Source: a virus. From it: a stretch of DNA of 56,620 bases. Both the position numbers and the translations under genes were made by a program. Positions within the stretch are counted from its first letter, which is position 1. Every line of letters begins with the position of its first letter. The stretch spans positions 1 through 56,620 of the IMG/VR virus record IMGVR_UViG_3300027754_000112, one strand, 5' to 3'. Shown one piece after another: positions 6,404 to 55,530 of this stretch. The notes under the pieces are model-generated. The model saw nothing but the letters and a program-made list of their open reading frames with translations, was not told the origin of the DNA and did not search any database.

Positions 6404-6433
6404 TTAAATAATATATTTGATTTTGCATTTCCT

Positions 6434-6510
6434 GATATGTATTAAAAAAGGTTAGTAGCTGTCCCATTGAAGCCTCCCTACGGCTTTAGACTGTGGGTTG
6501 TTAACTGGTC
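6434..6510 (+). promoter_or_regulatory. Leader element C: GATATGTAT box plus foldable RNA
   Basis: The 137-base gap before the 6541 gene holds the nonamer GATATGTAT (6434-6442). It is followed after 16 bases by CTGTCCCATTGAAGC (6459-6473), which matches leader D at 14 of 15 positions. Possible pairings are CTGTC 6459-6463 with GACTG 6489-6493 (one mismatch), AAGCC 6470-6474 with GGCTT 6482-6486, and the alternative CCCA 6463-6466 with TGGG 6494-6497. The last competes with or crosses the first. The element is non-coding in all frames as far as I can see. It is probably a 5' leader or a small RNA; its function is unknown. Confidence 0.55.
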
Positions 6511-6540
6511 ATACCAAAATAAATCAGAATTATTTAATTT

Positions 6541-11136: not shown

Positions 11137-11705
11137 TATCATTGCCACAACCTCCGTCTATAAATATTCAAAATCCACTTAGCGGAATTTCGAATAACGT
11201 TAATAATTTAATAAGTAGTACGTCTACAAACGTTTTAAATAAACTTCCAGACAAACGTGTTTCTGGTTTAAAATTTGAAAAACCAGATATAGACTGTGCA
11301 AAGTATTCATTAAATTCATTGAAAACTTTGCCAGGTCTACCATCAATATCAATTCCAAAATTAGGATTGCCTACTACAAAAGATCTTACTGATAGAGTAT
11401 CTCAATTTATACCACCCATTCCAAGTTTTACACTTCCATCTATACCCAATTTGCCAAGCATTCCCAATTTGCCAAATTTGCCAAGCATTCCCAATTTGCC
11501 AAGTTTTACACTTCCATCTATACCTCAAGTGTCAATTCCGAAGCTTCCTACGTTGGATTCTATAAATCCATTACCAATTGATCTTAAAGTCAATGCTTGG
11601 TTGGCAGAACCACCTAAATTAACAAGTCTTATTAAAAAATTACTACCAGCAAACCTACCCAATCTTCCAAAACCTCCATTTTTTTCTATAAAATGTTCTA
11701 AATAG
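11133..11705 (+). CDS. Pro/Leu-rich repeat protein
   Basis: This 190-residue protein starts inside the stop region of the spike gene (ATGA overlap) and is probably coupled to it. Its centre is built of repeats of LPSIPNLP and SFTLPSIP (nt 11425-11530), an unusual Pro-rich periodicity that would give an extended rod. The N-terminus has Ile/Asn/Pro-rich steps, and the C-terminus ends KPPFFSIKCSK. It lies between the hub/spike gene and the gp25 block, so it is likely a baseplate part or tape-like spacer. I do not recognise a family. Confidence 0.55.
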   Translation: MISLPQPPSINIQNPLSGISNNVNNLISSTSTNVLNKLPDKRVSGLKFEKPDIDCAKYSLNSLKTLPGLPSISIPKLGLPTTKDLTDRVSQFIPPIPSFTLPSIPNLPSIPNLPNLPSIPNLPSFTLPSIPQVSIPKLPTLDSINPLPIDLKVNAWLAEPPKLTSLIKKLLPANLPNLPKPPFFSIKCSK

Positions 11706-11714
11706 AAACATTAA

Positions 11715-11810
11715 CGAAACTAATCGGATGATGTAAGATATGTATATATTAAAGGTCGGAATTCCTATCCTAGGCTAAAGCCACGGCGGGGTTTTCTTCC
11801 TCCAAAAAGT
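11715..11810 (+). promoter_or_regulatory. Leader element A: GATATGTAT box plus foldable RNA
   Basis: This leader is homologous to leader B (28870-28975) over about 100 bases, from CGAAACTAAT to AAAAAGTATGAA. GATATGTAT is at 11737-11745. The possible hairpin pairs AATTCC 11760-11765 with GGGGTT 11788-11793, GG 11758-11759 with CC 11799-11800, and an inner GGC 11773-11775 with GCC 11780-11782 around a TAAA loop. One pair in the main helix changes from C-G here to T-A in B, a compensatory change. No open frame is visible. Either a regulatory 5' leader or a small RNA would fit. Confidence 0.6.
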
Positions 11811-12344
11811 ATGAAAACAAGTGAATTCAAATCATTAATACAGTCTATAGTTCAATCGGAGTTGAATAAATCGTTACCATCGATGATTTCGCAAATTTTG
11901 ACAGAGATCTTATCCCACAAGTCAGAATCTCGTGTTTTGGATGAACAACTGGAAATACCAACGGTTGCGACAGTAAAGAAACAACCTGTTGTAGTCAAAA
12001 AGGAAGAAACTCGTCAATTTAAAAAATATACTAACAATGATATATTGAATCAGGTTTTGAACGAAACTGTAGGTGGAGTTCCAAGAGAAGGATCTTATGT
12101 TTCATTAACATCTCCGATGACGACTGGTGTGTTATCTCAGAGGTTTATTAACGATCCATCTAACGCAAGTTCTGTTGAACAATTAAATGAATCAGTGATA
12201 GTTCCTCCAACGCATACTCCTGTAAATGAAGAACAAGCAAAAGTGTTGGATGTAATAACCAGAGATTTTAGATCTTTGATGAAAGCCGTAGATAAAAAGA
12301 AAAAACAAGGTAATCTAAACAGTGGATTGGTTCAAACCGAATAG
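11811..12344 (+). CDS. Unknown helical protein before the baseplate wedge genes
   Basis: This 177-residue protein begins FKSLIQSIVQSELNKSLPSM, an amphipathic helix like those at the N-termini of several T4-like head and core proteins. It is followed by a Val/Lys-rich linker, a Gly/Ser/Pro-rich middle and a basic C-terminus (SLMKAVDKKKKQG). Leader A lies directly upstream, and gp25 begins five bases after its stop. It shares the AAAAAGTATGAA start context with the 28976 gene. A baseplate or tail assembly role is inferred only from position. Confidence 0.5.
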   Translation: MKTSEFKSLIQSIVQSELNKSLPSMISQILTEILSHKSESRVLDEQLEIPTVATVKKQPVVVKKEETRQFKKYTNNDILNQVLNETVGGVPREGSYVSLTSPMTTGVLSQRFINDPSNASSVEQLNESVIVPPTHTPVNEEQAKVLDVITRDFRSLMKAVDKKKKQGNLNSGLVQTE

Positions 12345-20700: not shown

Positions 20701-22996
20701 GACGGTTGTGGCGTGGGGGAATAATGGACAAGGGCAGAGGACAGTGCCTGCTGGGCTGACCGGAGTGACGGCGATCGCAGGGGGTCAGTATCACACGGTG
20801 GCATTGAGTTCCTCGGGGACGGTGGTGATGTGGGGGTATAATACCTCTGGGCAGACGACATTGCCTACCGGGTTGACCGGAGTGACGGCGATCGCAGCGG
20901 GTGGGTCTCACACGGTGGCATTGAAGAGTGATGGGACCGTGGTGGCGTGGGGGTCTAATGAGTATGGGCAGACGACAGGATCATTTGGGATGTTCAACGT
21001 GACGTCATTCGACATAACTCAGCTGATCGGAGTGACGGCGATCGCAGCGGGAGGTTACCACACGGTGGCATTGAAGAGCGATGGAACCGTGGTGGCGTGG
21101 GGGAGAAATAATTACGAGCAGACGACAGTGCCTGCCGGGCTGACGGGAGTGACGGCGATCGCAGCGGGTTGGCAACACACGGTGGCATTGAAGAGCTGTG
21201 GGACCGTGGTGGCGTGGGGGAATAATGACTATGGGCAGACAGGGTCAGTCGGGCTGACCGGAGTGACGGCGATCGCAGCGGGTTTCGGTCACACGTTGGC
21301 ATTGAAGATCGATGGGACCGTGGTGGCGTGGGGGTTTAATGGACAAGGGCAGACGACAGTGCCAGAAGGGCTGACCGGAGTGACGTCGATCGCGGCCGGA
21401 GGTTATCACACGGTGACATTGGGCAGATCGATTGGTTATAGTATAGTTCCGGTATTGCCACATTTACCTACCGGTCAATCCACTCTGACAGGGAGTGCTT
21501 ATAATTTCGTTAATAATAGTGTCACTCAGTCTAACGAGTGTACCTTTTATTCTCAATCAATTTATCCATATCAGTTTGAAGAAGTGGATGTTCTACAATC
21601 TATATTGGTTTCTCATTATGGTCCCAATAAGTTGAAAAATAACAAAATCCGTAAAGTAAAACAAATATTGACATCGACACCGTCACCAGTTCAAATAGTT
21701 TCTAAAAATGTTGATACATTTTCTTCGGATTCAAATTTGATGGGTGTATTTATTTCTCCATTTAAGGTTAAAGATGATGATATCATCAATTTCTTGGGCG
21801 ATTATAATGTTATGAACTCGGTTGCAGATCCTGGTAATATTTATCAATCTTCATATACAGATTTGAAATCTTTGAGTCAAAATTATTATAAATATAACGG
21901 TGAACCTGTTTTATATCAAGAATTCATGACTTTGTATAAAAACTATATTGACAATTCTACATTTGATTCTATACGAAATGTTGTGCCAGCGAGAACGAAA
22001 CTTTTAACCGGCGTTCTGATTGAACCTTCGTTATTAGAAAGACCGAGAATTCAATTGCGTCCACCAATGCGTGAGGAAGTTAATATAAATGTTGGTGAAA
22101 TTGATACTAAAGATAATGTTTATGCAAATATACAGTCTTCCGAAAAATATTCTTCAACTATTGATGAAAATGTCAGCAGAAATCAAATAAAACAATTTAA
22201 TTTGAATAACGGATATATTTCAAATGATGAAACCGATTATTATTTAACTCAATATGTTCAACAAAATGTTCCGTTCTTTGATTATAAACAAAACAAAGTT
22301 TGTAGTCTAAGAGAAGTTGAGAATGTACAATATGTTTATAGTAATGATAAATTGGAAAATCCTATAAAAATCAAACTTCGCAAAATTATAGCAGTTCCTT
22401 CATCGGTTTCGTCTCAGGTGGGATCTGAATATACAACAAATGTTGATATAACATCTACAATAACGAATGTGTTTCCATTCCAACACTTGAGTTATAAAAA
22501 CAAACCAATGTCAAAATTTGCGATATATTTAAATGAAAAACCTTTATATTTCCCGAGTGATACTAAATCGAGTGATACTAAATCGAGCGATACTAAATCT
22601 AAAAATCTGGCGACACCCCTGGCGACGCAATTGCTACTTAATGCCGCTGTTTCATTAACAGGGATCGCAGGGATCGCAGGGATCGCGGGGATCGCGGGGA
22701 TCGCGGGGATCGCAGGGATCGCATTGAGAGAAATTACGCCGTTTATCCCTGGAACTTTATATTTCCCGAGTGATACTACATTTACAGACATCGATGGAAA
22801 TTCAATTGAAATATCTAATACGACATTTGGTATAGGAAACTTTTCTTTGGATGATATTTTTGTAAAATCTCAAAACAGTAAAAACACAACCATAATTAGT
22901 TCGTATGAAATTACTTCTTCTAACGGAGCGGTACTCTCATATTCTCCTATATTAATCCAAAGTTCAAGTATGAGTCAAAGCGTTTTCGTAATATAA
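17702..22996 (+). CDS. Giant tail/baseplate protein (1764 aa) with RCC1 propeller insert
   Basis: The first 700 residues are mixed alpha/beta. WKRILDSLPQIYKTKGTEEC, followed by INLLLSCYGVP, is the hallmark T-K-G-T...Y-G-x-P step of phage tail-protein-I-like modules. Residues about 745-905 look like a concanavalin/LamG-type sandwich (KSLEFTFKTEKSYVQNQRIN). Residues about 958-1241 are seven RCC1 repeats (see separate entry). After these, ordinary phage sequence resumes, including VVPARTKLLTGVLIEPSLLE and RPRIQLRPP, a step seen in large T4-like structural proteins. Near the C-terminus, residues about 1614-1692 hold a repeat-bounded insert containing (GIA)n. A position after gp6 suggests a gp7-like baseplate role, but the similarity is not evident. 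Confidence 0.65.
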   Translation: MNFPYPLVSTFTSSFNTASYFSADDVNNYNQNTDNPDIFFGKSDRDVVEFSYFNTIGEQNGWIKKTPDVKYLSQVGIYKDVDETQFTYNYRKVKTNYIDYQNNFLMDVGSDLSSSNVFDGQHIVSYNFTRTVAGSQSYPLIISDISPSRTELKLIPTFQKQSTDKNVFYENLHYESFCRKLVLIEDVVELIATSLDNFNCEDNYKSYSQSNPSDITNFKNTFAFKSDADAILLINAIYDGSLKLELDLFNNTTIKNLFGVKNYIKYWLYTYSKNILSFQELNQQIKYIVQKEYLNQLDVINIFNGDLTNNLQIVSTIVYDNFVQLVLNVIENVFLNKFHSYYKNALNFGNGVVFKFVDHSFSSKSESESKHIELLVKLDSPLSFDYAVKTKCWISNISIAPIVQNVILIPLKTVPQYKISGPDFSAKINNANKYGYNNIGSLDQNLSDTTLSQINIIDKLKNLNIDYSKFENFVIFSSAAIRIKIFKNKLESINNTNVQIQTLSDAATSSNTIISASYSSDIQSLQNNILSIQNSFDGYESYLYTDQSLIQGSLSDTNSNYHNYILDAENYDIQNIDSLVNNTPEYLKLNEDNNDYLLFLSMVGHHFDNIYQYIKSFPVLNKFTSSEDYLPDLVYYMLKTFGWNTSTDFANKSTLLSYSSDSSDSSAVSAKNKNEIIWKRILDSLPQIYKTKGTEECINLLLSCYGVPLNILSIREFGGNDIFQSNKTSYVYDAKYYFTKYQSGKEYVKIPYTSSAKSLEFTFKTEKSYVQNQRINLVTKDTCWNLSLLKSKVDNYGDIIFNIQNKSMKIENVPIFKGDNFYNVLLRRNSTSSFLDTNSNENYIPTQYDLVVKSYDGDREVFNHSSSIVLTKTYNEIFSQDGYLYFGNYPTSNKNFTGLLDKINLIQNPISNEYFSEYSRNYNFYGNNDVTNTWNDLVFRYNFEYPINLASSSISRPYTEATVAAWGDNSEGQRTVPAGLTDITAIAAGDKHTVTLKSDGTVVAWGNNGQGQRTVPAGLTGVTAIAGGQYHTVALSSSGTVVMWGYNTSGQTTLPTGLTGVTAIAAGGSHTVALKSDGTVVAWGSNEYGQTTGSFGMFNVTSFDITQLIGVTAIAAGGYHTVALKSDGTVVAWGRNNYEQTTVPAGLTGVTAIAAGWQHTVALKSCGTVVAWGNNDYGQTGSVGLTGVTAIAAGFGHTLALKIDGTVVAWGFNGQGQTTVPEGLTGVTSIAAGGYHTVTLGRSIGYSIVPVLPHLPTGQSTLTGSAYNFVNNSVTQSNECTFYSQSIYPYQFEEVDVLQSILVSHYGPNKLKNNKIRKVKQILTSTPSPVQIVSKNVDTFSSDSNLMGVFISPFKVKDDDIINFLGDYNVMNSVADPGNIYQSSYTDLKSLSQNYYKYNGEPVLYQEFMTLYKNYIDNSTFDSIRNVVPARTKLLTGVLIEPSLLERPRIQLRPPMREEVNINVGEIDTKDNVYANIQSSEKYSSTIDENVSRNQIKQFNLNNGYISNDETDYYLTQYVQQNVPFFDYKQNKVCSLREVENVQYVYSNDKLENPIKIKLRKIIAVPSSVSSQVGSEYTTNVDITSTITNVFPFQHLSYKNKPMSKFAIYLNEKPLYFPSDTKSSDTKSSDTKSKNLATPLATQLLLNAAVSLTGIAGIAGIAGIAGIAGIAGIALREITPFIPGTLYFPSDTTFTDIDGNSIEISNTTFGIGNFSLDDIFVKSQNSKNTTIISSYEITSSNGAVLSYSPILIQSSSMSQSVFVI
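20575..21430 (+). repeat. GC-rich RCC1 repeat insert 1 (seven repeats)
   Basis: Seven copies of A/M-W-G-x-N...T-A-I-A-x-G-x-x-H-T-V-A-L-K-S-D-G-T-V are encoded. Five perfect GCGATCGC octamers lie at 20771, 20888, 21038, 21155 and 21269. Successive spacings are 117, 150, 117 and 114 bp, so the unit is about 39 residues. Seven RCC1 repeats fit one seven-bladed propeller. The DNA is visibly GC-rich against AT-rich flanks within a single gene, which indicates recent acquisition. Confidence 0.88.
22542..22778 (+). repeat. 213-bp in-frame insert bounded by 24-bp direct repeats
   Basis: A 24-bp sequence beginning CTTTATATTTCCCGAG occurs at 22542-22565 and again at 22755-22778, a period of exactly 213 bp (71 codons). 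Between the copies lie a three-fold SDTKS repeat and a run of GGGATCGCA/GGGATCGCG units encoding (GIA)6. The reading frame is kept. Confidence 0.85.
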
Positions 22997-24710: not shown

Positions 24711-27700
24711 ATGATTAAGTCATTAAAAAGAAATGACATACGATCTACTCCATTTGTTGCGAATAAATCTTGGAATTCTCAAAATCAAACATTTGATAAT
24801 ACAATAAGTTGGCAAAGCGGGAGTCAGAGCGGATCTTTGTTTTTAAGTTTTGTGGATTATAAAGATGGAACTCAATTATCTTTACATTCTTCATCTATAG
24901 CATATCAACAGCAGGATCCCGATTTTTTGCGATTTCGAATTGGACAAGAAATAACAGGCACTACATTTTATCCGACTTCAAGTAAATATTACGATTCATT
25001 GGTTAATCCTACGAATATAGATGGAACGTATCAGGGGTTAGTATACAATACTCTTAAAAATTTGTTTTACAAAGAGACTGCGAATCCGACTCAAATTTTT
25101 GGATTGGAGTCATTGAATCCTGTTGATGTGAACCGAACATTGACAAAACAAATTAATGTATTTAATGTTCCACAAAACAAATTTGGAGAAAAAATAGTTC
25201 CGAATAGTATAGAAATAAAACAACAATTAGATGATGGACACTTTGTTGTAATAGATGATGGTAATACCAATTTAAAATTGAGTGGGTCACATTTTGTTGA
25301 TGTTCAAAATGCAATGTACAATTGTGTATCTGCGATTGTAAATGTCACGAATACTAGTTATACATATGATGGTTCTCCAAAATCTGCATCAGTTACTACA
25401 AATCCTTCGGATTTAATAACTATAACTACATATAATGGTTCGGAGACGCCGCCTACAAATGTCGGAACATATACAATACTTTCTACAATTTGGGATGGGT
25501 ATTATTGTGGATCTACAGGTTCCACTTTCGTTATAAATAAGGCAACCGCAGCAATTACAGTAACAGGTGACGAAGTGACATATGATGGCAAACCTCATTT
25601 TGCCACTGTGACTACAACTCCATCGAGTCTTGATTATGATATTGTATATACTTTAAACGGTGCGACCATACCAGATAATAATCCAATCAATGTTGGAAAG
25701 TATACTGCTACTGCAACAATCAGGGGAAATCCAGAAGTAAAAGGCGAAGCATTCGTTATTATAACTCCTAAATCATTGAGTGTGACGTTTTATCCAATTG
25801 ACGATCAGGTATATGGAACATCAGATCCAATTCAGTTGAACGCAAGTTATTCTCCTCTAGATCTGACATCTGGTATAAATATAGAATATAGTATAACATC
25901 CGGAAGCAATTTAGCAACAATTGTAGATCCACTAAAGCCTGAGGTTACAATTTTCGGTTGGGGGTCATATGGCAATCACAAAACTGGCTCTGTCACAGTA
26001 AAAGCATCAACCAACGTTCCACCAAATGGAAATTATTTGACAGACGTTGCATTTCAAACTTTTAACGTTACTCCAAAACCAATTCGGTCTGGTCACCATA
26101 TTATATATACGACTCCAGTAACATCGGATCAAACATATACTAATACACCTGCTAATTTCGGATTCGGCTGGGAGGAAAATGAATTTTTAAAATTCGTTAA
26201 AAAATCTGGAGACGATGTTCGTATATTAGGTTCTTATAACGTAATAATTCGTCCTTCTGATTCTGGAAGATATACAGTCAATATCGGATCGCCATTTTAC
26301 TTCTCTGGATTGGACATGGAGAAATATTCATTGGAACAACCAACGCAGGAGGTGAATATTTATCCAACAACTATACAATTATCCGATAGCTTCTTCACAT
26401 ATGATGGCGAACCATATACAATCGCAGATATTATAAATAAAGGATTCGCTACACTTGAATCGAATATTAATTATACAATAAAATTTTTTAATAATGCAGG
26501 AAACGAAATATTTACAGACAAGTATAATTCAACCACAGTAAACCCGACTTATGTTGGTCCGACTAATAAAGGATATTATAAAGTAACAATAACAAATAAT
26601 AATGTTACATCGGATACAAAAACCGTTAACCTAACTATTAATCAAGCAAACGCAACTGTTACTTTTAACATCGAACCGCCAGATGGTGTGTTTGAACATT
26701 TGCAATTTAATAATTGCGATGATCAAATTAATAAACTAAAAAATAATGGAATAAAACCAGTCACAATAAAAGGCGTATCCTATAAGGATCGAACCGGCGT
26801 GGAACAAGTAATTAGTCCTATTCCACCCGAACTCAAAGTCACATACCAATCTGATATATACAATAAATCTGAAACTGTCCCAACGGTGAGCGGATACTAT
26901 CAGATTGGTATAAATGGAACGAATGCTAATTTTCTGTTTGTACTCCCCGGTACTTCTGAAGTAACCTTTAATGAAGTTATATATATAGTATATCGCAATG
27001 GTCATAGTTTTGTTCAAGACTCGTCTCGGAGAGACGGTCTACAGATAACGTCGTCACAATATTATACAAGTAGCAATCATAATCTTTTAAAATTCTACCA
27101 GCCATCTGCAGTAGTTCAAAATTGGAATACAATCTATAATAATAAGTCAAAATTAAACAATTATAAATTCACTGATTATACAGGGTCTTCCCCCGTCGAT
27201 TTGGGTGTATCTTTCGTATCAATAGGTGCCGGCGGTGGCGGCGGTGATGGATCGTTGATTGGCGATGGGACGGTTGTGAGCTGGAATCCTCCTGCCGGTC
27301 GTTATGGTAATAGCGATGTCTATGCGATGGATTCGCCTGCCGGGTTGGCCGGAGTGACGGCAATCGCAGCGGGATGGGGTTTCACGGTGGCATTGAAGAG
27401 CAATGGTACCGTGGTGGTGTGGGGGGATACGGGTCCATATGGGAATAAGAAGATACCTAACGACCTACAAAATGTGTCGACCAATCCCGTGACGGCGATC
27501 GCAGCGGGTGGGAATATCGTTGCGGCATTGAAGAGCGATGGGACGGTTGTGGCATGGAACGCCGGGTCGTGGAGTAGTGGCGATTATTTCCCCAACATGC
27601 CTCAGAAGTTGAAAAATAAGAGAGTGACGGCGATCTTCGTGGGTCATGGTGCTGTCTTCGCATTGTATGACGCAGGCACTGTGGCAACGTGGGAGCCTCC

Positions 27701-28790
27701 TGGTGGTTATGGTGGTTATTTTCGGGAGGTAAAAGACGGTGACGGGCTGAAAGGAATCAAGCAGATCTCTTTCGGAGAAGGGTGGTCGGTGGCATTGAAG
27801 ATCGATGGTACGGTGGTGACGTGGGGGACGCAGCATCCGAAGTCAACGAATGTGCCTAACGAGCTCCAGGTAATAAATCTGGACAATCCCGTGACGGCGA
27901 TCGCCGCAACAGGAATCAGAACGTTGCTATTGAAGAAAGATGGGAAGTTGTACTGGTTATATGATGGCAACGTATCCAGTGAAGACCGAGCGACCGACGT
28001 GACGGCGATCGCAGCGGGATACGCTCACTTTGTGGCACTGAGGAGAAATAACACCGTCTTCACTTCGCCAACTTCGATGGGGGGAAAAACGGTTTATCTG
28101 ACCGGTGGCGATACACTGACCGGAGTTACGGCGATCGCAGCGGGTGATAATAACACGGCGGCATTGAAGGGGCAGACAATATCAGTTGGGGGCGGCGGTG
28201 GTGCTTACGTTGGATTTTCTATGCCTGCCAAATATTTGGTTGATAATAATATAAACACCATGAAAATGGTTACATATGGAGTTGGTCAAACAAGCCCCTC
28301 AGTAACTGCCGGTGGTCCTGCATTTTTTGTAACAGAAAGTTCTTATACAACAAACTCAGCGTGGTTGGGAATATATGCCGCCGGTGGTGGTGGTACTACA
28401 ACGTCAGTGATTGGGGTTGGTGGAAAATCTTATATCAATAAACAAATATACAGTGGTAGTTTGTATGCAGATCCAGATCATCTCTATAACAGATTTATTG
28501 ATGGTAATAATTATTATGAAGAGACACTTAAAAATCAAGGAATTAGATATAACAATGAAGTAATTAATGTAGGTATGATTGACGAGTTTAATACTGCACA
28601 ATACGGATTGAACGGTGACTTGGGGGGTTTAAACGGAATCAAAAGAATATCAACATTTGAAACACCACATCTTCGATGGGGGCGGGGAAGTTCCACGAAC
28701 AATTCATCAATGTGTGAAATCAGAATACGACATAGTATTTATCAAATTTATTTGAATGGAACGAAAATATATGATGTAAATAATATTTAA
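24711..28790 (+). CDS. Giant adhesin-like tail fibre with MBG, Gly-rich and RCC1 domains
   Basis: This 1359-residue protein opens with a virion-anchor-like region of about 200 residues (SLKRNDIRSTPFVANKSWNS). MBG-type Ig repeats follow from about residue 210 to 460 (SYTYDGSPKSASVTTNPSDL, VTYDGKPHFATVTTTPSSL, then NVGTYTILST and NVGKYTATATI). A further Ig-like unit (FFTYDGEPYTI) comes near residue 560. MBG domains are typical of bacterial surface adhesins. From about residue 836 a glycine-rich domain starts (SIGAGGGGG), is broken by a degenerate seven-repeat RCC1 block (about 843-1155), and resumes as SVGGGGGAYVGFSMP. A C-terminal sandwich (ICEIRIR-like strands) ends the protein. A receptor-binding fibre is inferred. 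Confidence 0.68.
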   Translation: MIKSLKRNDIRSTPFVANKSWNSQNQTFDNTISWQSGSQSGSLFLSFVDYKDGTQLSLHSSSIAYQQQDPDFLRFRIGQEITGTTFYPTSSKYYDSLVNPTNIDGTYQGLVYNTLKNLFYKETANPTQIFGLESLNPVDVNRTLTKQINVFNVPQNKFGEKIVPNSIEIKQQLDDGHFVVIDDGNTNLKLSGSHFVDVQNAMYNCVSAIVNVTNTSYTYDGSPKSASVTTNPSDLITITTYNGSETPPTNVGTYTILSTIWDGYYCGSTGSTFVINKATAAITVTGDEVTYDGKPHFATVTTTPSSLDYDIVYTLNGATIPDNNPINVGKYTATATIRGNPEVKGEAFVIITPKSLSVTFYPIDDQVYGTSDPIQLNASYSPLDLTSGINIEYSITSGSNLATIVDPLKPEVTIFGWGSYGNHKTGSVTVKASTNVPPNGNYLTDVAFQTFNVTPKPIRSGHHIIYTTPVTSDQTYTNTPANFGFGWEENEFLKFVKKSGDDVRILGSYNVIIRPSDSGRYTVNIGSPFYFSGLDMEKYSLEQPTQEVNIYPTTIQLSDSFFTYDGEPYTIADIINKGFATLESNINYTIKFFNNAGNEIFTDKYNSTTVNPTYVGPTNKGYYKVTITNNNVTSDTKTVNLTINQANATVTFNIEPPDGVFEHLQFNNCDDQINKLKNNGIKPVTIKGVSYKDRTGVEQVISPIPPELKVTYQSDIYNKSETVPTVSGYYQIGINGTNANFLFVLPGTSEVTFNEVIYIVYRNGHSFVQDSSRRDGLQITSSQYYTSSNHNLLKFYQPSAVVQNWNTIYNNKSKLNNYKFTDYTGSSPVDLGVSFVSIGAGGGGGDGSLIGDGTVVSWNPPAGRYGNSDVYAMDSPAGLAGVTAIAAGWGFTVALKSNGTVVVWGDTGPYGNKKIPNDLQNVSTNPVTAIAAGGNIVAALKSDGTVVAWNAGSWSSGDYFPNMPQKLKNKRVTAIFVGHGAVFALYDAGTVATWEPPGGYGGYFREVKDGDGLKGIKQISFGEGWSVALKIDGTVVTWGTQHPKSTNVPNELQVINLDNPVTAIAATGIRTLLLKKDGKLYWLYDGNVSSEDRATDVTAIAAGYAHFVALRRNNTVFTSPTSMGGKTVYLTGGDTLTGVTAIAAGDNNTAALKGQTISVGGGGGAYVGFSMPAKYLVDNNINTMKMVTYGVGQTSPSVTAGGPAFFVTESSYTTNSAWLGIYAAGGGGTTTSVIGVGGKSYINKQIYSGSLYADPDHLYNRFIDGNNYYEETLKNQGIRYNNEVINVGMIDEFNTAQYGLNGDLGGLNGIKRISTFETPHLRWGRGSSTNNSSMCEIRIRHSIYQIYLNGTKIYDVNNI
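27237..28200 (+). repeat. RCC1 repeat insert 2 inside a glycine-rich domain
   Basis: Seven degenerate RCC1 repeats are encoded (VSWNP, VVWGD, VAWNA, ATWEP, VTWGT, LYWLY and a last FTSP copy). Each is followed by a T-A-I-A-A-G-like step and an A-L-K-type strand. GCGATCGC occurs at 27495, 27897, 28005 and 28131. The decamer GGCGGCGGTG bounds the block at 27237-27246 and 28191-28200. The flanks read as one glycine-rich domain if the block is removed. Confidence 0.8.
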
Positions 28791-28800
28791 TTTAAAAAGT

Positions 28801-28836
28801 ATGAATTTTACAATAAAAAATGAAAATTGTGTATAA
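28801..28836 (+). pseudogene. Duplicated, truncated start of the 28976 gene
   Basis: ATG 28801 begins an 11-codon frame (MNFTIKNENCV, stop 28834-28836). It is identical for its first nine codons to the start of the downstream propeller gene at 28976. It is a left-over of the duplication described at 28794-29003, not a working gene. Confidence 0.8.
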
Positions 28837-28869
28837 AAACATCAAAAAAGTTAAAATAATTTTGTGGTT

Positions 28870-28975
28870 ACCGAAACTAATTGGTTGATGTGAGATATGT
28901 ATATATGGATATATGTTAAAGGTCGGAATTTCTACCCTAGGATAAAACCATAGGAGGTTCATTCCTGCAAAAAGT
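28870..28975 (+). promoter_or_regulatory. Leader element B: GATATGTAT box plus foldable RNA
   Basis: This leader is homologous to leader A. GATATGTAT is at 28894-28902, followed by an extra ten or so bases and then AAAGGTCGGAATTTC. Possible pairing joins AATTTC 28927-28932 with GAGGTT 28954-28959, GG 28925-28926 with CC 28964-28965, and an inner GG 28940-28941 with CC 28948-28949. The perfect Shine-Dalgarno-like AGGAGG (28952-28957) is 18 bases from the ATG and lies within the helix. It could therefore be masked rather than used directly. Confidence 0.6.
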
Positions 28976-31306
28976 ATGAATTTTACAATAAAAAATGAAA
29001 ATTATGGATATAGTGTTGCGACATATGGCGATTATGTTGCAATAGGATCTCCGCCGTCTTTTCTTTCCGGCAGTGGATTTTCAGTCGGTCAAGTATCGGT
29101 CAAAAAGTATAATTATTCAAATAATGAATATGAAAATTATTTGACACTACAAAAGACACTTGATCAAGGTGATTACACGGTTTTTAATTTGTCTCAAGCT
29201 GATGATTTGTTGACAGAAACAGGAGACGTTATAACAGGTGACCTTAATGATAATATTTCGATAAATAAAGTTGAAAATGAATATGGACATTCACTTTCTA
29301 TTTACGGAAATGATTTGGCAGTTACAACTAGATATTTTAAATGTAGCGTGGTGAATTCTCCTACAGTTATTACTGGATCCAATGTTGATATTTATGATTT
29401 GTCTACGCTCGCAATTATTCCAAAATTTACTATAACCAGTTCTTTCAATGATGAAACTGGCAGTTTTGGTTATAATGTTTCGGTTGGCAAAAATGTTTTA
29501 GCAATAGGTTGTATTGGAAAGTATAACAACAAAGGTGCGGTTTATATTTACAACAAATCAGAATCCGTTTGGAATTATGCGCAAACATTAACTGGAAGTA
29601 ATAGTGTATCTGGCGATTGTTTTGGTTATTCATTAAAATTGGATCCGAGTGGCAGTAACAAATTGATTATAGGAAATAGTTCATCCGTATCATCATTTGG
29701 CTCTGTTTATATTTTTGAATCATCATCATTGGGATGGACGCAAAATTCAATTTTAAATGCGGATAATGATTTTAATTATGTTCTGCCCAACGTAAATGTG
29801 TATCCATATTCGGCGCAAACACAAAGTTATAACGGATTTGGTTATAGTGTATCAATTTATGGAGATAAAGCTATAGTTGGATGTCCATTTGAATCACAAT
29901 ATCTTGAATATAGTGAATCCCTACTCCGAAAACGTGGATCGGTATTCTTATACTACAAGTGTAATTTAACAAATAAATGGGTATTTGACAATAAATTTTA
30001 TAGTGGAATATTTGATGAAAATGATGCCGTTTTCAAGGATAATAAACTAGGATATAAAGTTGATATTTTTGAAAATTATTGTATTGCATCGTCTTTGAAA
30101 TGGAATTATCCATACAGTTCAAGTTATATATCAGGTACGTTAAATAGCGTTCTTTATAACGAATCTCTAATAAATTATTATAATACTCTTGGCTACGTTT
30201 ATTTATATGAATATCAAAGTGGAAGTTGGTCTTCTTTAAAAAATTTATCAAGAATAAAAAATGTTGGAAATCCATATAGTGTCTATGGATATGATGTTTC
30301 TTTGTCGGACAAATCAATCGTCGTTGGTTCTCCGTGTTTATTATCTGCCTTGAATAGAACCATAACATCATCGGTTGAAAATTATAGAAATATAAGAGGT
30401 TATTCTTTCGTTTATAACTTTGATGATTTTGTCGCAGATCATCATATAGGAAATTCATTTTATAGAAATGGAGCATTGGTCATAAAAACCAATGGATCTA
30501 TTTTTGATAATATGATGACGCAACACAGAATTTATGATGATGCATTGCCATATTATAATCTTAAATACAATTCACAAATAACTTTGCACGAAAATCAAAC
30601 AATTTGTCAAATTATGCCGGGAGAGTTTAATGTCAGCACAAATCCAACTGCGGTATATAGAGACACATTCACATATGATATAAATCAAGATAAGAAATTT
30701 GATTTCCAAGATGTAGACTTGATTTTAAGATATATGTGCAATTTAAATTTAGGAAATGAACAATGGTGGAATGTTGTGATAGAAAATGACTATGAAACCA
30801 GTTTATTTAACTATTATAGTGGATTACAAAGTGATATTCAAAATGCACCTATATCAAGAACGGTAAGCAATTATTTCAGTGGGTCATTATTAACCACCGA
30901 ATATTCTACATATTTGAATGGTATCAAAGATGATTTGGATACTGATGGAAATGGATCTGTAAACATAAACGATATGTTTATATTATGGCAGTATTTTACT
31001 CATCAACTAACTGACAATATATATAAGACTCTTGTCACACCCAAATCTAAACGTTCTAAATATACAGATGTTCTCGATTATTTGGATACCAAGACAAGTA
31101 AGATAAACCCATCTTACATTACGCCTGAGTTCTTTAACTATCAATATAGTTCTTCAGTTGATAATACCGGTTCATTTTTAGCTCCATACATCACAACTGT
31201 TGGATTATACAGTGGAACCGATTTGGTTGCAATTGGAAAATTGGGAACTCCTATTAAAAATAGTGGAGATTTTCCGATAAATATTTTGGTAAAATGGGAT
31301 GTTTGA
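28976..31306 (+). CDS. FG-GAP-like propeller protein with dockerin-like EF-hand pair
   Basis: This 776-residue protein starts directly with repeats of the integrin-alpha/FG-GAP type: YGYSVATYGDYVAIGSP, YGHSLSIYGNDLAV, FGYNVSVGKNVLAIG, FGYSLKLDPSGSNKLIIG, FGYSVSIYGDKAIVG, LGYKVDIFENYCIAS and YGYDVSLSDKSIVVGSP. Seven copies suggest a complete seven-bladed propeller. Near residues 568-590 and 652-675, DINQDKKFDFQDVDLILRYM and DLDTDGNGSVNINDMFILWQ are calcium-loop EF-hands spaced as in a type I dockerin. The end (ITTVGLYSGTDLVAIGKLGT) matches the C-terminus of the 23667 gene. Leader B precedes it. A tail-peripheral binding protein is inferred. Confidence 0.68.
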   Translation: MNFTIKNENYGYSVATYGDYVAIGSPPSFLSGSGFSVGQVSVKKYNYSNNEYENYLTLQKTLDQGDYTVFNLSQADDLLTETGDVITGDLNDNISINKVENEYGHSLSIYGNDLAVTTRYFKCSVVNSPTVITGSNVDIYDLSTLAIIPKFTITSSFNDETGSFGYNVSVGKNVLAIGCIGKYNNKGAVYIYNKSESVWNYAQTLTGSNSVSGDCFGYSLKLDPSGSNKLIIGNSSSVSSFGSVYIFESSSLGWTQNSILNADNDFNYVLPNVNVYPYSAQTQSYNGFGYSVSIYGDKAIVGCPFESQYLEYSESLLRKRGSVFLYYKCNLTNKWVFDNKFYSGIFDENDAVFKDNKLGYKVDIFENYCIASSLKWNYPYSSSYISGTLNSVLYNESLINYYNTLGYVYLYEYQSGSWSSLKNLSRIKNVGNPYSVYGYDVSLSDKSIVVGSPCLLSALNRTITSSVENYRNIRGYSFVYNFDDFVADHHIGNSFYRNGALVIKTNGSIFDNMMTQHRIYDDALPYYNLKYNSQITLHENQTICQIMPGEFNVSTNPTAVYRDTFTYDINQDKKFDFQDVDLILRYMCNLNLGNEQWWNVVIENDYETSLFNYYSGLQSDIQNAPISRTVSNYFSGSLLTTEYSTYLNGIKDDLDTDGNGSVNINDMFILWQYFTHQLTDNIYKTLVTPKSKRSKYTDVLDYLDTKTSKINPSYITPEFFNYQYSSSVDNTGSFLAPYITTVGLYSGTDLVAIGKLGTPIKNSGDFPINILVKWDV

Positions 31307-40436: not shown

Positions 40437-40471
40437 ATATCATATACGAAATAGATACTAGTAAATGATAT
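40437..40471 (+). promoter_or_regulatory. Inverted repeat overlapping the start of homing endonuclease 1
   Basis: ATATCAT (40437-40443) is the reverse complement of ATGATAT (40465-40471), and the second arm contains the first bases of the ATG (40470). In read-through RNA the hairpin would mask the start. The arms are only 7 bp and AT-rich. Confidence 0.35.
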
Positions 40472-42272
40472 GAACAAGTGTAAAGTGTGTGATATTTATA
40501 CCAATAATGATAATTATTGTTCGATGAAATGTAGGGATTCATCAAGAAAAAGCAAATCTTGGATTGTCAAAAAATGTAAAGTTTGTGAAAGCGTATTTGA
40601 ATGTAGAGTATCCAGAATTAAAATATACTGTTCGTGTAAATGTGCAAGTAATGACAAATATATTACTATTAAAAAGAATGAAAAGGCAAAAGAAACAAAT
40701 ATAAAGAAATATGGGTGTCATCCATCGAAGACGGATTTGGTAAAAGAAAAAATTAAAAATAGTTTAATAGAGAAATATGGGGTAGACCATTATAGTAAAA
40801 CCGAGGATTATAAGACAAAAGTAAAGTCTACTAATTTAAAGAAATATAATGTAGAATATCCCCAACAAAACGAATTAATAAAAGAAAAAACAAAAATAAA
40901 AGTAAATGAAAAATATGGGGGGTTTACATTAAAATCGAAAAAACTTTCTGAAAAGGTTAAGTCAACAATTTTAGAAAAGTATGGTGTTGATAATGTTCAG
41001 AAAAATGAAAATATTAAAAATAAAAAAGAAAATACAAATTTGAAGAAATATGGGTTTAAAAGTCCATTAAAAAATGAAAGTATAAAATCTAAAATAAAAG
41101 ATACTTTGTTTAAAAAATATAATGTTACTAATATTTCACAAGATTTTAATACAAGATGTAAAATATCTGCAACGATTCATAAAAAGTTTTATGAATATTT
41201 GATAAATGAAAAACTAAAAAATATATGTAAGCCTCTTTTTTCCACGGAAGAATATACGGGTGTAGAATATTACAAAAAATATCAATTTGAATGCATCAAA
41301 TGCAACAATGTATTTTCTGATTATTTGTATGGGGGAAGAATCCCAAAATGTCAAATTTGTTATCCGTTTATACAAAGTAAACCACAAAAAGAAGTCTATG
41401 ATTTCGTTCGGGACATTTTACCAAAAAACATTGAAATAATAGAAAATACTAAGAAAATTTTACCAAGTGGAAAGGAATTAGATATATATATTCCATCAAA
41501 AAATATAGCGATAGAATTTGATGGATTATACTGGCACAGTGAAATTAACGGACAAAAAAATAAAAACTATCATTTGGATAAAACAGAAGAATGTGAAAAA
41601 CTTGGTATAAAATGTATTCATATTTTTGAAAATGAATGGACATTAAAAAATGACATTATAAAAAGAAAAATATCGTATATGTTAAAAACAAAATCAAACA
41701 AGGGGATTTATGCTAGAAATTGTATAATAAAGGAAATAGATGAAAATGAGAAACGGTTGTTTTTGGATAAATATCATATTCAAGGAAATGATAAGAGTAA
41801 AATAAAATTGGGAGCTTTTTATCAAAATGAATTGGTAGCCGTAATGACATTCAGTAAACAACGACTTGCTCTCGGTAACAAAACTTCAATTGACGGTGAA
41901 TATGAATTAATAAGATTTTGTGTTGGAAATGAGAATGTGATTGGAATAGGAGGTAAACTATTATCTTATTTCATCAGAAAATACGATCCAATAAAAATTG
42001 TGAGTTATGCGGATAGAAGATATAGCGATTCCAAGTCGTTTTATCAAAAAATAGGTTTTAATTTTGTTGGAGTAACAAATCCCAATTATTGGTATTTTTT
42101 GCCCGATAATTATTTAAATTTAACTCACCGATTCAATTTCAGAAAAAATATATTACACAAAAAACTTGAAAAATTTGACTCCAATTTAACTGAATGGCAA
42201 AATATGCAAATTAATGGATATGATAGAATCTGGGATTGTGGACATTTAAAATACGAATGGTTGCGTAGTTAA
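40470..42272 (+). CDS. Free-standing homing endonuclease, Hef/EDxHD-like (HEG 1)
   Basis: This 600-residue protein has two N-terminal Cys clusters (CKVCDIYTNNDNYCSMKC, CKVCESVFECRVSRIKIYC). Five or six repeats of the form K-Y-G-V-x-N-x-x-K-x-E-x-I-K follow, a DNA-binding module of phage endonucleases, then another Zn site (FECIKCNNVF...CQIC). The nuclease core (ELDIYIPSKNIAIEFDGLYW, then IHIFENEW) is of the Vsr/EDxHD type. The C-terminal third (KLGAFYQNELVAVMTFSKQR, then KIVSYADRRYSDSKSFYQKI) looks like a GNAT-fold domain. It is inserted between the sheath terminator and the terminase operon and is a paralogue of the 51190 gene. It would spread by cutting phages that lack it. Confidence 0.78.
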   Translation: MNKCKVCDIYTNNDNYCSMKCRDSSRKSKSWIVKKCKVCESVFECRVSRIKIYCSCKCASNDKYITIKKNEKAKETNIKKYGCHPSKTDLVKEKIKNSLIEKYGVDHYSKTEDYKTKVKSTNLKKYNVEYPQQNELIKEKTKIKVNEKYGGFTLKSKKLSEKVKSTILEKYGVDNVQKNENIKNKKENTNLKKYGFKSPLKNESIKSKIKDTLFKKYNVTNISQDFNTRCKISATIHKKFYEYLINEKLKNICKPLFSTEEYTGVEYYKKYQFECIKCNNVFSDYLYGGRIPKCQICYPFIQSKPQKEVYDFVRDILPKNIEIIENTKKILPSGKELDIYIPSKNIAIEFDGLYWHSEINGQKNKNYHLDKTEECEKLGIKCIHIFENEWTLKNDIIKRKISYMLKTKSNKGIYARNCIIKEIDENEKRLFLDKYHIQGNDKSKIKLGAFYQNELVAVMTFSKQRLALGNKTSIDGEYELIRFCVGNENVIGIGGKLLSYFIRKYDPIKIVSYADRRYSDSKSFYQKIGFNFVGVTNPNYWYFLPDNYLNLTHRFNFRKNILHKKLEKFDSNLTEWQNMQINGYDRIWDCGHLKYEWLRS

Positions 42273-42331
42273 AAAAATTAAGATTAAAATAAAATATTAT
42301 ATATATAGTTATCACATTAGATACATCGCCA

Positions 42332-42403
42332 GATATGTATTTTAAGGGGCAAGGACTGTCCTATTGAAGCACCTATGGCGTTAGCCTAGCGACAGTGAGG
42401 TTC
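42332..42403 (+). promoter_or_regulatory. Leader element D: GATATGTAT box plus foldable RNA
   Basis: GATATGTAT lies at 42332-42340, followed after 15 bases by CTGTCCTATTGAAGC (42356-42370), the same block as in leader C. ACTGTC 42355-42360 pairs perfectly with GACAGT 42391-42396. Inside, CTA 42373-42375 plus GGC 42377-42379 pair with GCC 42384-42386 plus TAG 42387-42389 around a GTTA loop. The conserved CTATTGAAGC lies in the internal loop. AGG 42398-42400 could instead pair with CCT 42360-42362, crossing the main stem. A TATATATA run precedes it at 42299. Confidence 0.6.
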
Positions 42404-42407
42404 CAAT

Positions 42408-42434
42408 TATAAATATCAATAATATAAAGGGTGG
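42408..42434 (+). promoter_or_regulatory. Late promoter TATAAATA and Shine-Dalgarno site for the terminase operon
   Basis: TATAAATA occupies 42408-42415, five bases after leader D ends. Transcription would start near 42421. AAAGGGTGG (42426-42434) is a usable Shine-Dalgarno site 10 bases before ATG 42445. The order leader D, late promoter, gene suggests that D acts on transcripts from a different, probably earlier, start. Confidence 0.6.
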
Positions 42435-42444
42435 ATTATAAGTT

Positions 42445-43152
42445 ATGAGAAGTAATACCGGCAAAAATATAAAATTAAAAACAGGTAAATCTAATTTGGA
42501 TATAGTTAAAAGTTACATTGACGGAGAAAGAGCATTCGTACAAGTTGGTTATGATGAAAATTCGCAACTATCAAGTAGAAAAGAAGGAGAGGAATGGGAA
42601 GATAGTCAAGGTAAAACTTGGATAAAACAGAACGGAGTAAAGAAAAGAGTTTCTAAAAAATCTATAATTAATATTGAACAGAAATGTTCTATATGTGAAG
42701 CGGACATGAAATGGGGAAATTATTTGGATCAAAGAGTATATCCAAGATGTGGAAAATGTTATGATTGTAGTATTATATTTGACGACCGTTTAAAATTACT
42801 TGGAGTTTTCAACGAATATGCTCGATATACTGTATTTAAAAATCAACTTTCAAAGTTAAATGACATAAAGTCAAAATTGCAAGAAAGCATAGATTACTTG
42901 GAAAATTATGATTCGTCATTGAAATATTATAATAGTGATGGCACTCATGAAGTTTGGACAGATAATACGGACACTCGTGAAAAAGTTCTTACAGATTTAC
43001 GTAAAGATATGACAGAAGTAGATGATCGATTAAAAGAAACACACGAAGCATTGAGTCAAATTTCATATGATTCTTCGGTGGAAGAAAAGGCAAAACAAAT
43101 GACTTTGGAAAGTTTAAAAGCTAAAGAAAAAATGAAATTTGATACTCTATGA
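42445..43152 (+). CDS. Zn-ribbon coiled-coil protein before TerL (possible small terminase role)
   Basis: This 235-residue protein carries the segment RKEGEEWEDSQGKTWIKQNG and a four-Cys zinc ribbon (C-S-I-C-E-A-D-M...C-G-K-C-Y-D-C). The second half is a long helical region (FKNQLSKLNDIKSKLQESID, then DDRLKETHEALSQI) likely to be a coiled coil. It overlaps the large terminase gene by four bases. T4 has the small terminase gp16 in this position, and coiled-coil oligomerisation would suit such a role. I see no helix-turn-helix and no direct gp16 similarity, so this is inference from context. It has a late promoter and Shine-Dalgarno sequence of its own. Confidence 0.55.
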   Translation: MRSNTGKNIKLKTGKSNLDIVKSYIDGERAFVQVGYDENSQLSSRKEGEEWEDSQGKTWIKQNGVKKRVSKKSIINIEQKCSICEADMKWGNYLDQRVYPRCGKCYDCSIIFDDRLKLLGVFNEYARYTVFKNQLSKLNDIKSKLQESIDYLENYDSSLKYYNSDGTHEVWTDNTDTREKVLTDLRKDMTEVDDRLKETHEALSQISYDSSVEEKAKQMTLESLKAKEKMKFDTL

Positions 43153-51160: not shown

Positions 51161-51190
51161 TATAGCATATGACTTGATACATATGCTATA
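51161..51190 (+). promoter_or_regulatory. Perfect 11-bp inverted repeat ending at the start of homing endonuclease 2
   Basis: TATAGCATATG (51161-51171) is the exact reverse complement of CATATGCTATA (51180-51190), with an 8-base loop. The last base of the second arm is the first base of the ATG at 51190. The hairpin in RNA would hide the start codon. Confidence 0.75.
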
Positions 51191-52881
51191 TGGACACAAC
51201 AGTAAATTGGCTTAAACAACATATATTACATGACCGGGGATTAATTTCAAAGAAATGTAAAAAAGAATGGTTTGATAAGTATAATTTTTCAAATCAATAT
51301 CAAGAAATATTAAATTTCACAAATTTTTTGGATGAAATAAATCCGTCATTGCCACAAAGAATTTGGCATTTGTTAAATAACAAGTTAGAAAAAAATAAAT
51401 GTAAAAATCAAGGATGTAGTAATACTACATCTTTTTTTTCTTTTAATAGGGGTTATTTAGATAACTGTGGGCATAAATGTGCGCAAAAGAACACAAATAC
51501 TTCAGAAAAAATAAAATCCACAAATTTAAAAAAATACGGAGTGGAATATGGATTAAGTAATAAAGATGTTATAAATAAAAGAAATCAAACTGTTAGAAAT
51601 AAATATGGGGTGGATAATATATCACAATTAAAAGAAACTTCAGAAAAGAAAAAACAAACATGTTTGAATAATTATGGGGTTGAATGGATATTGATGGATT
51701 CCGTCATAAGAAGAAACGGAATGATTGAAAAATATGGAGTGGATAATAATACCAAACGAAAAGAAATAAGAGAAAAATATTCCAAAGAAAGGCGGGAGAG
51801 TTTTTATGATTCTTTGTTTTCAACCAACAGATTAAATGGAAAAATAGTGCCGTTGTTTACCAAGGAAGAATATAAAGGATCAACACATGACCATATATTT
51901 AAGTGTATAAAATGTTCAAATGAATTCGTTGACAAACTTGAAGACGGAGACCTTCCCCGTTGTAAAATTTGTTATCCAGTAAGCGGGTCGTCTCTTTTTG
52001 AAAAAGAAATAACCGAATATATTAAAACACTACTTCCCAATGATATTGTTTTAGAAAATGATAAAAAAGTATTGCGTGGATTAGAATTAGACATTTATAT
52101 TCCATCAAAAAATATAGCAATAGAGTGTAATGGACTATATTGGCATAGTGAAATTGGTGGTAATAAAAATAAACAGTATCATATCAACAAAACAAATGAA
52201 TGTGAAAAACAAAATATTCACCTGATTCATGTTTTTGATGACGAATGGATAGACAAAGAATATATCGTAAAATCAAAATTGCGTCATATATTAAATTCAA
52301 GTGTCACGGATAAGAAAGTCTATGCTAGAAACTGTGTAATAAAAGATGTAACTATATCAGAAAAGAATGAATTCTTACAAAAATATCATATTCAGGGAGA
52401 AGATTACAGTCAAATTAAATTGGGTGCGTTTTATGAAAATGAATTGGTTGCGGTGATGACTTTTGGAAAACCCCGTGTTGCTATGGGTCATAAAAATATA
52501 AACAAAGGCGATTATGAATTGATACGATTCGCTACATCAAAAAATGTAGTTGGTATAGCTAGCAAACTATTATCATATTTTACAAAATTATACACTCCAC
52601 AAAAAATTATAAGTTATGCGGACAGACGTTGGACATATCTGAATAAAAATGTATATGAAAAAATAGGATTTGTTAAAATATCAAATGGAACTCCAAATTA
52701 TTGGTATATTTCGCCTAAATCAAATAAACGAATCTATAGATATAATTTCAGAAAACAAACACTGAAAGAGACGTTACAGATATTTGACCCAAATCTTACC
52801 GAGTGGCAAAATATGCAATTGAATGACTATGATAGAATCTGGGACTGTGGGTCGATAAAATATGAATTAATTTGTAAATAA
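51190..52881 (+). CDS. Free-standing homing endonuclease, Hef/EDxHD-like (HEG 2)
   Basis: This 563-residue paralogue of the 40470 gene has the same parts: an N-terminal Cys site (CKNQGCSNTT...CGHKC), four or so K-Y-G-V-D-N repeats, a Zn site (FKCIKCSNEF...CKIC) and the Vsr/EDxHD core (LELDIYIPSKNIAIECNGLY, then LIHVFDDEW). The C-terminal GNAT-like part (KLGAFYENELVAVMTFGKPR, then KIISYADRRWTYLNKNVYEK) is also shared, as is the ending LTEWQNMQLNDYDRIWDCG. The N-terminus differs from HEG 1 and contains NWLKQHILHDRGLI. In the core, Asp of F-D-G-L-Y-W-H is Asn here (C-N-G-L-Y-W-H), which might affect activity. Confidence 0.78.
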   Translation: MDTTVNWLKQHILHDRGLISKKCKKEWFDKYNFSNQYQEILNFTNFLDEINPSLPQRIWHLLNNKLEKNKCKNQGCSNTTSFFSFNRGYLDNCGHKCAQKNTNTSEKIKSTNLKKYGVEYGLSNKDVINKRNQTVRNKYGVDNISQLKETSEKKKQTCLNNYGVEWILMDSVIRRNGMIEKYGVDNNTKRKEIREKYSKERRESFYDSLFSTNRLNGKIVPLFTKEEYKGSTHDHIFKCIKCSNEFVDKLEDGDLPRCKICYPVSGSSLFEKEITEYIKTLLPNDIVLENDKKVLRGLELDIYIPSKNIAIECNGLYWHSEIGGNKNKQYHINKTNECEKQNIHLIHVFDDEWIDKEYIVKSKLRHILNSSVTDKKVYARNCVIKDVTISEKNEFLQKYHIQGEDYSQIKLGAFYENELVAVMTFGKPRVAMGHKNINKGDYELIRFATSKNVVGIASKLLSYFTKLYTPQKIISYADRRWTYLNKNVYEKIGFVKISNGTPNYWYISPKSNKRIYRYNFRKQTLKETLQIFDPNLTEWQNMQLNDYDRIWDCGSIKYELICK

Positions 52882-54525: not shown

Positions 54526-55530
54526 ATGTCAAATTTATTAAAGGAGGCAATTGCCGACGCTAAGGCGGTTCGTGCTACTGCCCTCGCGAATGCAAAGGCT
54601 GCATTGGAAGAAGCTTTTAATACAAAAGCTGAAGCAATGTTAGCAGAAAAACTTAAACAAGAAATTTTCGGTAACGAAAATGCTGAAATGGCAGAGTTTG
54701 TGCCAGCACAATCGTCCGGTATTTCAAATCTAGATCCAACTGGTGACAGTGATGGTATGCCATTGACAGTTGATCGATATCCGGATGGAATATCTGAAGA
54801 AGAAGTAACAAGTGAAGAACTTGATGAAATTCTTGCTGAACTTGAAAAAGAAATGGGAGATGAACCAACTGCACCAGTTGCACCAGTTGCACCAGTTGCA
54901 CCAGTTGCACCAGTTGCACCAGTTGCACCAGTTGCACCAGATGCACCAGTTGCGCCAGATGCATCAGATGTTCCCGCTGCACCAGAATCATCGGCAACTC
55001 CCGACGAAGTTGATGAAGAAATCAATCTACAAGAACTTCTGGACACCTTGAGTGAAGAAGTAGACGAAGATGTAGATGTAGATACAGAGGAAAATTCTGA
55101 AGAGGGTGCCGAAGAATATGCCGAAAGTATTAAAATCAAGAACGACTTGAATGAGGCTTATAAGGTAATTGAATATCTTCGTTCTCAAATCAACGAAATC
55201 AATTTGTTGAACAGTAAGTTGCTTTATACCAACAAGTTGTTCAACGGATTCAATTTGACCAAGGGACAAAAGACCACGGTCATTGAAACATTTGACTTAG
55301 CGAAGAGTGTTCGTGAAGTCAAGTATGCATACACAATTTTGTCCGAATCATATAGTTCAGGTGGATCGACCGTCAAGAAAACTAATACGGTTGCAAAAAC
55401 TATCACCGAAGGTTTGGCAAGTAAACCGATTGCATCAACAGCTCCTTCACGGGACGTTATTGTTGAAAATAGCAATGAGTTGGCTGCAAGATTCCAAAAA
55501 CTCGCCGGAATCAAAAGAGCAGTTAAGTAA
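54526..55530 (+). CDS. gp22: Prohead core scaffold gp22-like
   Basis: The scaffold character is evident. The N-terminal helix is Ala-rich ([20 protein letters not shown], then ALEEAF). A strongly acidic middle follows, interrupted by ten A-P-(V/D) repeats (54871-54960), and another acidic stretch ([18 protein letters not shown]). The C-terminal helical region ([20 protein letters not shown], later [17 protein letters not shown]) is typical of T4-like gp22. At 334 residues it is longer than T4 gp22 (269) by roughly the repeat and acidic part. It lies between the protease block and the capsid gene, as in T4, and would be degraded by gp21. Confidence 0.82.
54871..54960 (+). repeat. Ten 9-bp repeats (GCACCAGTT type) in the scaffold gene
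   Basis: Ten tandem 9-bp units encode A-P-V seven times, then A-P-D, A-P-V and A-P-D. The copies are nearly identical at DNA level, so the number can vary by slippage without loss of frame. Confidence 0.9.

Follow-up and report, generated by a model that had tools for sequence, protein, structure and literature searches.

In an uncultured, T4-related phage, a short noncoding leader (leader B) lies inserted in front of a late virion-type gene, and the start of this gene has been duplicated around it. We consider it fairly probable that this was a recent insertion, found in this lineage only, of a promoter/5'-UTR cassette that entered by a template switch and is one of four leaders spread in the genome.

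Table 1. Position of the leaders, the repeat and the neighboring features in the window.
Feature	Coordinates	Strand	Evidence
Leader D, before 340-aa gene (GTG start 6541)	6424..6540, left edge uncertain	+	GATATGTAT and CTGTCCYATTGAAGC shared with C
Leader A, before 177-aa gene at 11811	11711..11815	+	homology to leader B; identical in L003; absent from relatives
Direct repeat copy 1 (original gene start, now dead)	28794..28828	+	exact match to 28969-29003
11-codon dead start ORF (ATG..TAA, MNFTIKNENCV*)	28801..28836	+	read from the sequence itself
Inserted segment, 140 bp, between repeat copies	28829..28968	+	absent at all 17 orthologous junctions
Leader B	28867..28980	+	homology to leader A (88 of 103 aligned bases; blastn E 8e-20)
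Direct repeat copy 2 (working gene start)	28969..29003	+	exact match to copy 1
FG-GAP repeat gene, 776 aa, late virion-type protein	28976..31306	+	Pfam FG-GAP_2 E 1.7e-20; orthologues
Leader C, before 235-aa gene at 42445, upstream of terL	42312..42444, left edge uncertain	+	GATATGTAT and CTGTCCYATTGAAGC shared with D

The phage

The window, that is, the whole stretch of DNA analyzed, is a single IMG/VR virus record of 56,620 bases. It has structural and replication genes of the T4 type, namely those for the gp25 baseplate protein, the tail sheath and a T4-type terminase, as well as an SbcCD-like fusion gene. The closest isolate in which this fusion turned up was Microcystis phage Mel-JY01 (37% identical). 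A search for tRNA and tmRNA genes gave none. The cyanobacterial octamer HIP1 (GCGATCGC) occurred in 9 copies vs. 0.14 expected, all within two RCC1-repeat stretches (20771-21276 and 27495-28138), and in 0 copies across the relatives' contigs compared; this confinement, together with the absence from those relatives, may point to a cyanobacterial origin, with the host as one candidate. Two large DUF7487 homing-endonuclease-like genes (40470-42272 and 51190-52881) were both present in one relative, L092, at around 90% identity. A perfect 9-bp tandem array (54870-54931; unit TGCACCAGT) was located within a coding frame starting at 54526.

The duplicated gene start and the inserted segment

The original prediction of a perfect 35-bp repeat around leader B, with an 11-codon dead start left in its first copy, was exact in its coordinates and in the spacing of 175 bp. 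Around the 35 exact bases, a longer stretch was identical at 40 of 42 positions. Among exact repeats of at least 20 bp in the window this was the only pair situated at a gene junction, the rest being tandem or coding. The longest exact direct repeat in 10 dinucleotide shuffles of the window (spacing 20-300) was 12-14 bp; since no shuffled window exceeded 14 bp, the repeat was not attributable to chance. Copy 2 opens the FG-GAP gene (protein start MNFTIKNENYGY...), a start backed by the orthologues, and the start context of the 11-codon ORF is the same as that of the real gene.

The insert is composed of an AT-rich left part (28829-28866) followed by leader B, and 38 bp of it were found nowhere else in the window. 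Leader B contains a GATATGTAT core (28894-28902), a hairpin (CCTAGG-ATAAAA-CC-A-TAGG, 28936-28954) and AAAAAGT ahead of the ATG. The 12-mer AAAAAGTATGAA was present in exactly three copies in the window, one of them ending leader A, as had been foreseen when both leaders were said to share this junction; it was not found in the relatives' contigs checked.

Empty sites in relatives

Orthologous loci of the FG-GAP gene were compared on other phage contigs (n = 17, 34-67% identical). In all of them the gene started 1-40 bp past the preceding stop, at a single-copy junction (gaps of 1-15 bp in most relatives), and neither the leader nor the repeat was found at any of the 17 loci. This agrees with the earlier proposal that the gene once began directly after the preceding one. 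Relatives had also been expected to lack the 175-bp insert and to carry a single AAAAAGTATG start; the former was the case at 17/17 loci, but the AAAAAGTATG start was carried by none. An old and static arrangement with diverged repeat copies in all relatives, the situation that would have contradicted the prediction, was seen in none of the 17. The same long gene was also present upstream in L088 and L107, its C-terminal end homologous (IYLNGSSIYNVDQIT vs. IYLNGTKIYDVNNI), and was followed by a 1-bp gap, so that this empty site corresponds to the window on both flanks. In L004, the closest homologue at the protein level, the gap was 9 bp, but the gene ahead of it was much shorter. The size of the gene adjoining the insertion (24711-28790, MBG and RCC1 domains) was strongly plastic among relatives: 1359 aa here, 1323 aa in L088 and 205 aa in L004.

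Since the leader was lacking at 17 of 17 orthologous junctions, leader B is, to judge from sequence comparison, a derived insertion specific to its own phage lineage, and the identity of the repeat copies indicates that it is recent.

Leader A and the age of the insertion

Leader A precedes a gene adjoining gp25 and unrelated to the one behind leader B, at the same relative position and with the same AAAAAGTATGAA end. An independent 5.5-kb assembly of the same phage (L003, 99.8% identical to the window) contained it unchanged. A search with the 177-aa gene gave 80 loci, and leader A was absent from 79, the exception (L007) being L003's contig; in the upstream sequences of relatives that were read, its position was usually filled by an AT-rich motif of type TGATAATTATATAGTATATG. 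No flanking duplication above chance was detected at leader A (P = 0.71), and the homology of its left end with the native intergenic region of relatives was not significant. The duplication therefore belongs to the event at B and is not a hallmark of the leader unit, so that the claim that a leader-bearing segment arrives with duplication of its target stood at B but not at A.

Leaders A and B differed at around 15% of the aligned bases, in contrast with none between the repeat copies. If the insertion at B were as old as the split between A and B, and assuming similar rates, 35 unchanged bases would be expected with P of about 0.004. Leader B thus came in recently, from a source that had by then diverged from the genome's own leader A, and not as a fresh copy of it.

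Leaders C and D and searches for further copies

Leaders C and D have CTGTCCYATTGAAGC exactly in common, and the GATATGTAT core is common to all four leaders. This 9-mer occurred six times in the window vs. 1.35 expected; the four noncoding copies corresponded exactly to the four leaders, and the other two lay within coding sequence that relatives also have. Leader C was absent at the orthologous loci of L092 and L097, and leader D at those of L106, L098, L094, L104, and L103. The AT-rich, promoter-like stretch native to the gene in L092 was still recognizable upstream of the position of C, which places C between this stretch and the start codon. The homology of A and B to C and D was modest: the score of A against C was reached by 6 of 1000 shuffles, and B against C was not significant. 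At C and D, direct tests for the decayed remains of a duplicated start were not significant, and the left flank of C compared with the native start in L092 was only suggestive (P = 0.02-0.09). A tie between leader C and a homing endonuclease was considered and rejected, as L092 has the adjoining endonuclease gene but no leader C.

Patterns built on the leader DNA matched only L003, the same phage, among viral contigs. The loosest pattern matched 14 other viral contigs, all of them attributed to chance from their flanks and nhmmer, and the single match among genome contigs (L090) was likewise judged to be chance. With blastn against phages and plasmids only chance matches were obtained, and no donor copy was found elsewhere in viral or genome contigs.

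In our reading, the four leaders are mobile promoter/5'-UTR cassettes of one small family, which were found only in the source phage and probably move between genes. The suggestion that the leader moves as a unit fits its recurrence elsewhere in the genome, as A and in the more distant forms C and D, and its absence from these positions in relatives; the movement is read from this distribution.

Putative promoter and 5' UTR

The GATATGTATATA core of leader B may act as the gene's own putative late promoter, as it resembles TATATATA-like motifs lying about 5-20 nt before the ATG at other late genes of the clade. Motif sites of this kind were located at 4853, 9057, 23035, and 31635, and also in L092, L094, and L106. 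This short distance suggests that many late-type genes of the clade have very short 5' UTRs. A transcript from the putative promoter would begin near AAAGGTCGG and have a 5' UTR of around 60 nt, in which a small hairpin could form. The gaps of 1-15 bp in most relatives indicate that, until the leader was inserted, the gene probably relied on read-through and translational coupling from the one ahead of it.

No sigma-70-type promoter was found on the plus strand at A or B, nor any terminator-like site in 28600-29100 or 11500-11900, the hairpin being without a T-run. Folding of the leaders was no better than that of shuffled controls (z between about -1.3 and +0.3), and consensus folding of the four gave no shared pairs. 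With Rfam 15 covariance models, no part of the window reached a gathering score, and at relaxed thresholds A, B, C, and D had only chance-level matches; a self-splicing intron was discarded for lack of an Rfam match.

Entry of the leader

Replication of T4 is recombination-dependent (reviewed in PMC3678771). In such a setting, the replicating strand of this T4-related phage would leave the gene just after its start, copy a leader-bearing segment from another locus or from a co-infecting phage, and return to the original template at AAAAAGTATGAA, which both the leader 3' end and the gene start contain. Whatever lies between the points of re-entry and departure would be copied twice, giving the 35-bp repeat and the observed order in one event, and the insertion would swap upstream read-through for an own late promoter and its 5' UTR. 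Microhomology-mediated switching is a known variant of recombination-dependent replication in general. The microhomology step needs the AAAAAGT before the dead start to be native, and no counterpart of it was found in the relatives. That the leaders are a new class of phage mobile element, noncoding promoter/5'-UTR cassettes of around 105-140 bp that spread between genes by landing at start codons through start-site microhomology, with leader B as one insertion caught soon after the event, we put forward only tentatively.

The same product would result if a co-infecting phage had an allele of this gene with the leader already in place and homologous exchange with it, through an unequal crossover, left both starts; T4-like phages recombine heavily, and the 35 bp could be common to two alleles of one species. 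We regard this as unlikely, given that leader and FG-GAP gene occurred together in 0/17 orthologous loci and that leader patterns disclosed no such case either. Rather less likely is a dedicated enzyme that inserts the leader, as a non-autonomous mobile element, in a transposition-like manner with a 35-bp target-site duplication. A discrete insert between perfect direct repeats, related elements at four loci and the two homing-endonuclease-like genes in the window are in its favor, but duplication at A, C, and D was not above chance, no terminal inverted repeats pair the leader ends, and both endonuclease genes are also present in L092, where no leader C lies beside one. Thus neither the terminal inverted repeats nor the duplication at each insertion that characterize a transposon or MITE was found, which disfavors a transposase with fixed duplication and, as the duplication exists only at B, argues for a one-off template switch. 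Usual target-site duplications are far shorter than 35 bp.

Short repeats can cause misjoins and the contig is metagenomic; nevertheless, an assembly artefact at the 35-bp repeat is very improbable, since leader B is unique sequence that differs from A and includes the 38 bp without another copy in the window, leader A is confirmed by the independent assembly, and leaders of the same kind occur at three more loci. Least credible of all is an old conserved regulatory design in which the 11-codon ORF serves translational control: the matching start contexts would suit it, but the arrangement was absent in 17/17 relatives and the identical repeat copies are hence young, so that as regards age this reading is refuted.

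Comparison with known systems

Shuffling of T4-type genomes by mobile regulatory cassettes has been proposed, but the insertion itself can rarely be seen. The insertion of leader B keeps the duplicated start together with clean empty sites in 17 relatives, so that both the entry mechanism and the effect on expression are testable. It suggests that rewiring by cassettes can reach late and virion genes as well as early gene regions.

Closest among known systems are the promoter-early stem-loops (PeSLs), mobile cassettes with a regulatory role in T4-type phages (Arbiol et al., 2010; Comeau et al., 2014; as presented in PMC4503421 and PMC3950731). As described there, and compared by description and not by sequence, they join an early promoter to a terminator stem-loop, and shuffled regions are rich in them. 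Like them, the leaders are short intergenic cassettes with an apparent promoter and a hairpin, repeated in one T4-related genome and present or absent between relatives (four leaders, none at orthologous loci). In contrast, the leaders have a putative late-type promoter, a hairpin without a T-run, and abut the start codons of late or virion genes; no early-type (host sigma-70-like) promoter was found, the core resembling the AT-rich start-proximal motif of the clade, and neither was a terminator stem-loop. Since these two defining features are lacking, we file the leaders as working like PeSLs and do not class them as members.

A conserved motif of the haloarchaeal myovirus HGTV-1, a TATA-box plus inverted repeat before many ORFs, has also been likened to PeSLs (Sencilo et al., 2013, cited in PMC3950731). 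By description, the leaders are alike in having a TATA-like element with an inverted repeat behind it, repeated ahead of ORFs in a single myovirus, although HGTV-1 is an archaeal virus. The putative mobile promoters of bacteria are promoter-bearing noncoding segments copied to new genes, usually as near-identical copies. Unlike these, the leaders are diverged copies in a phage, with a duplicated gene start at one insertion.
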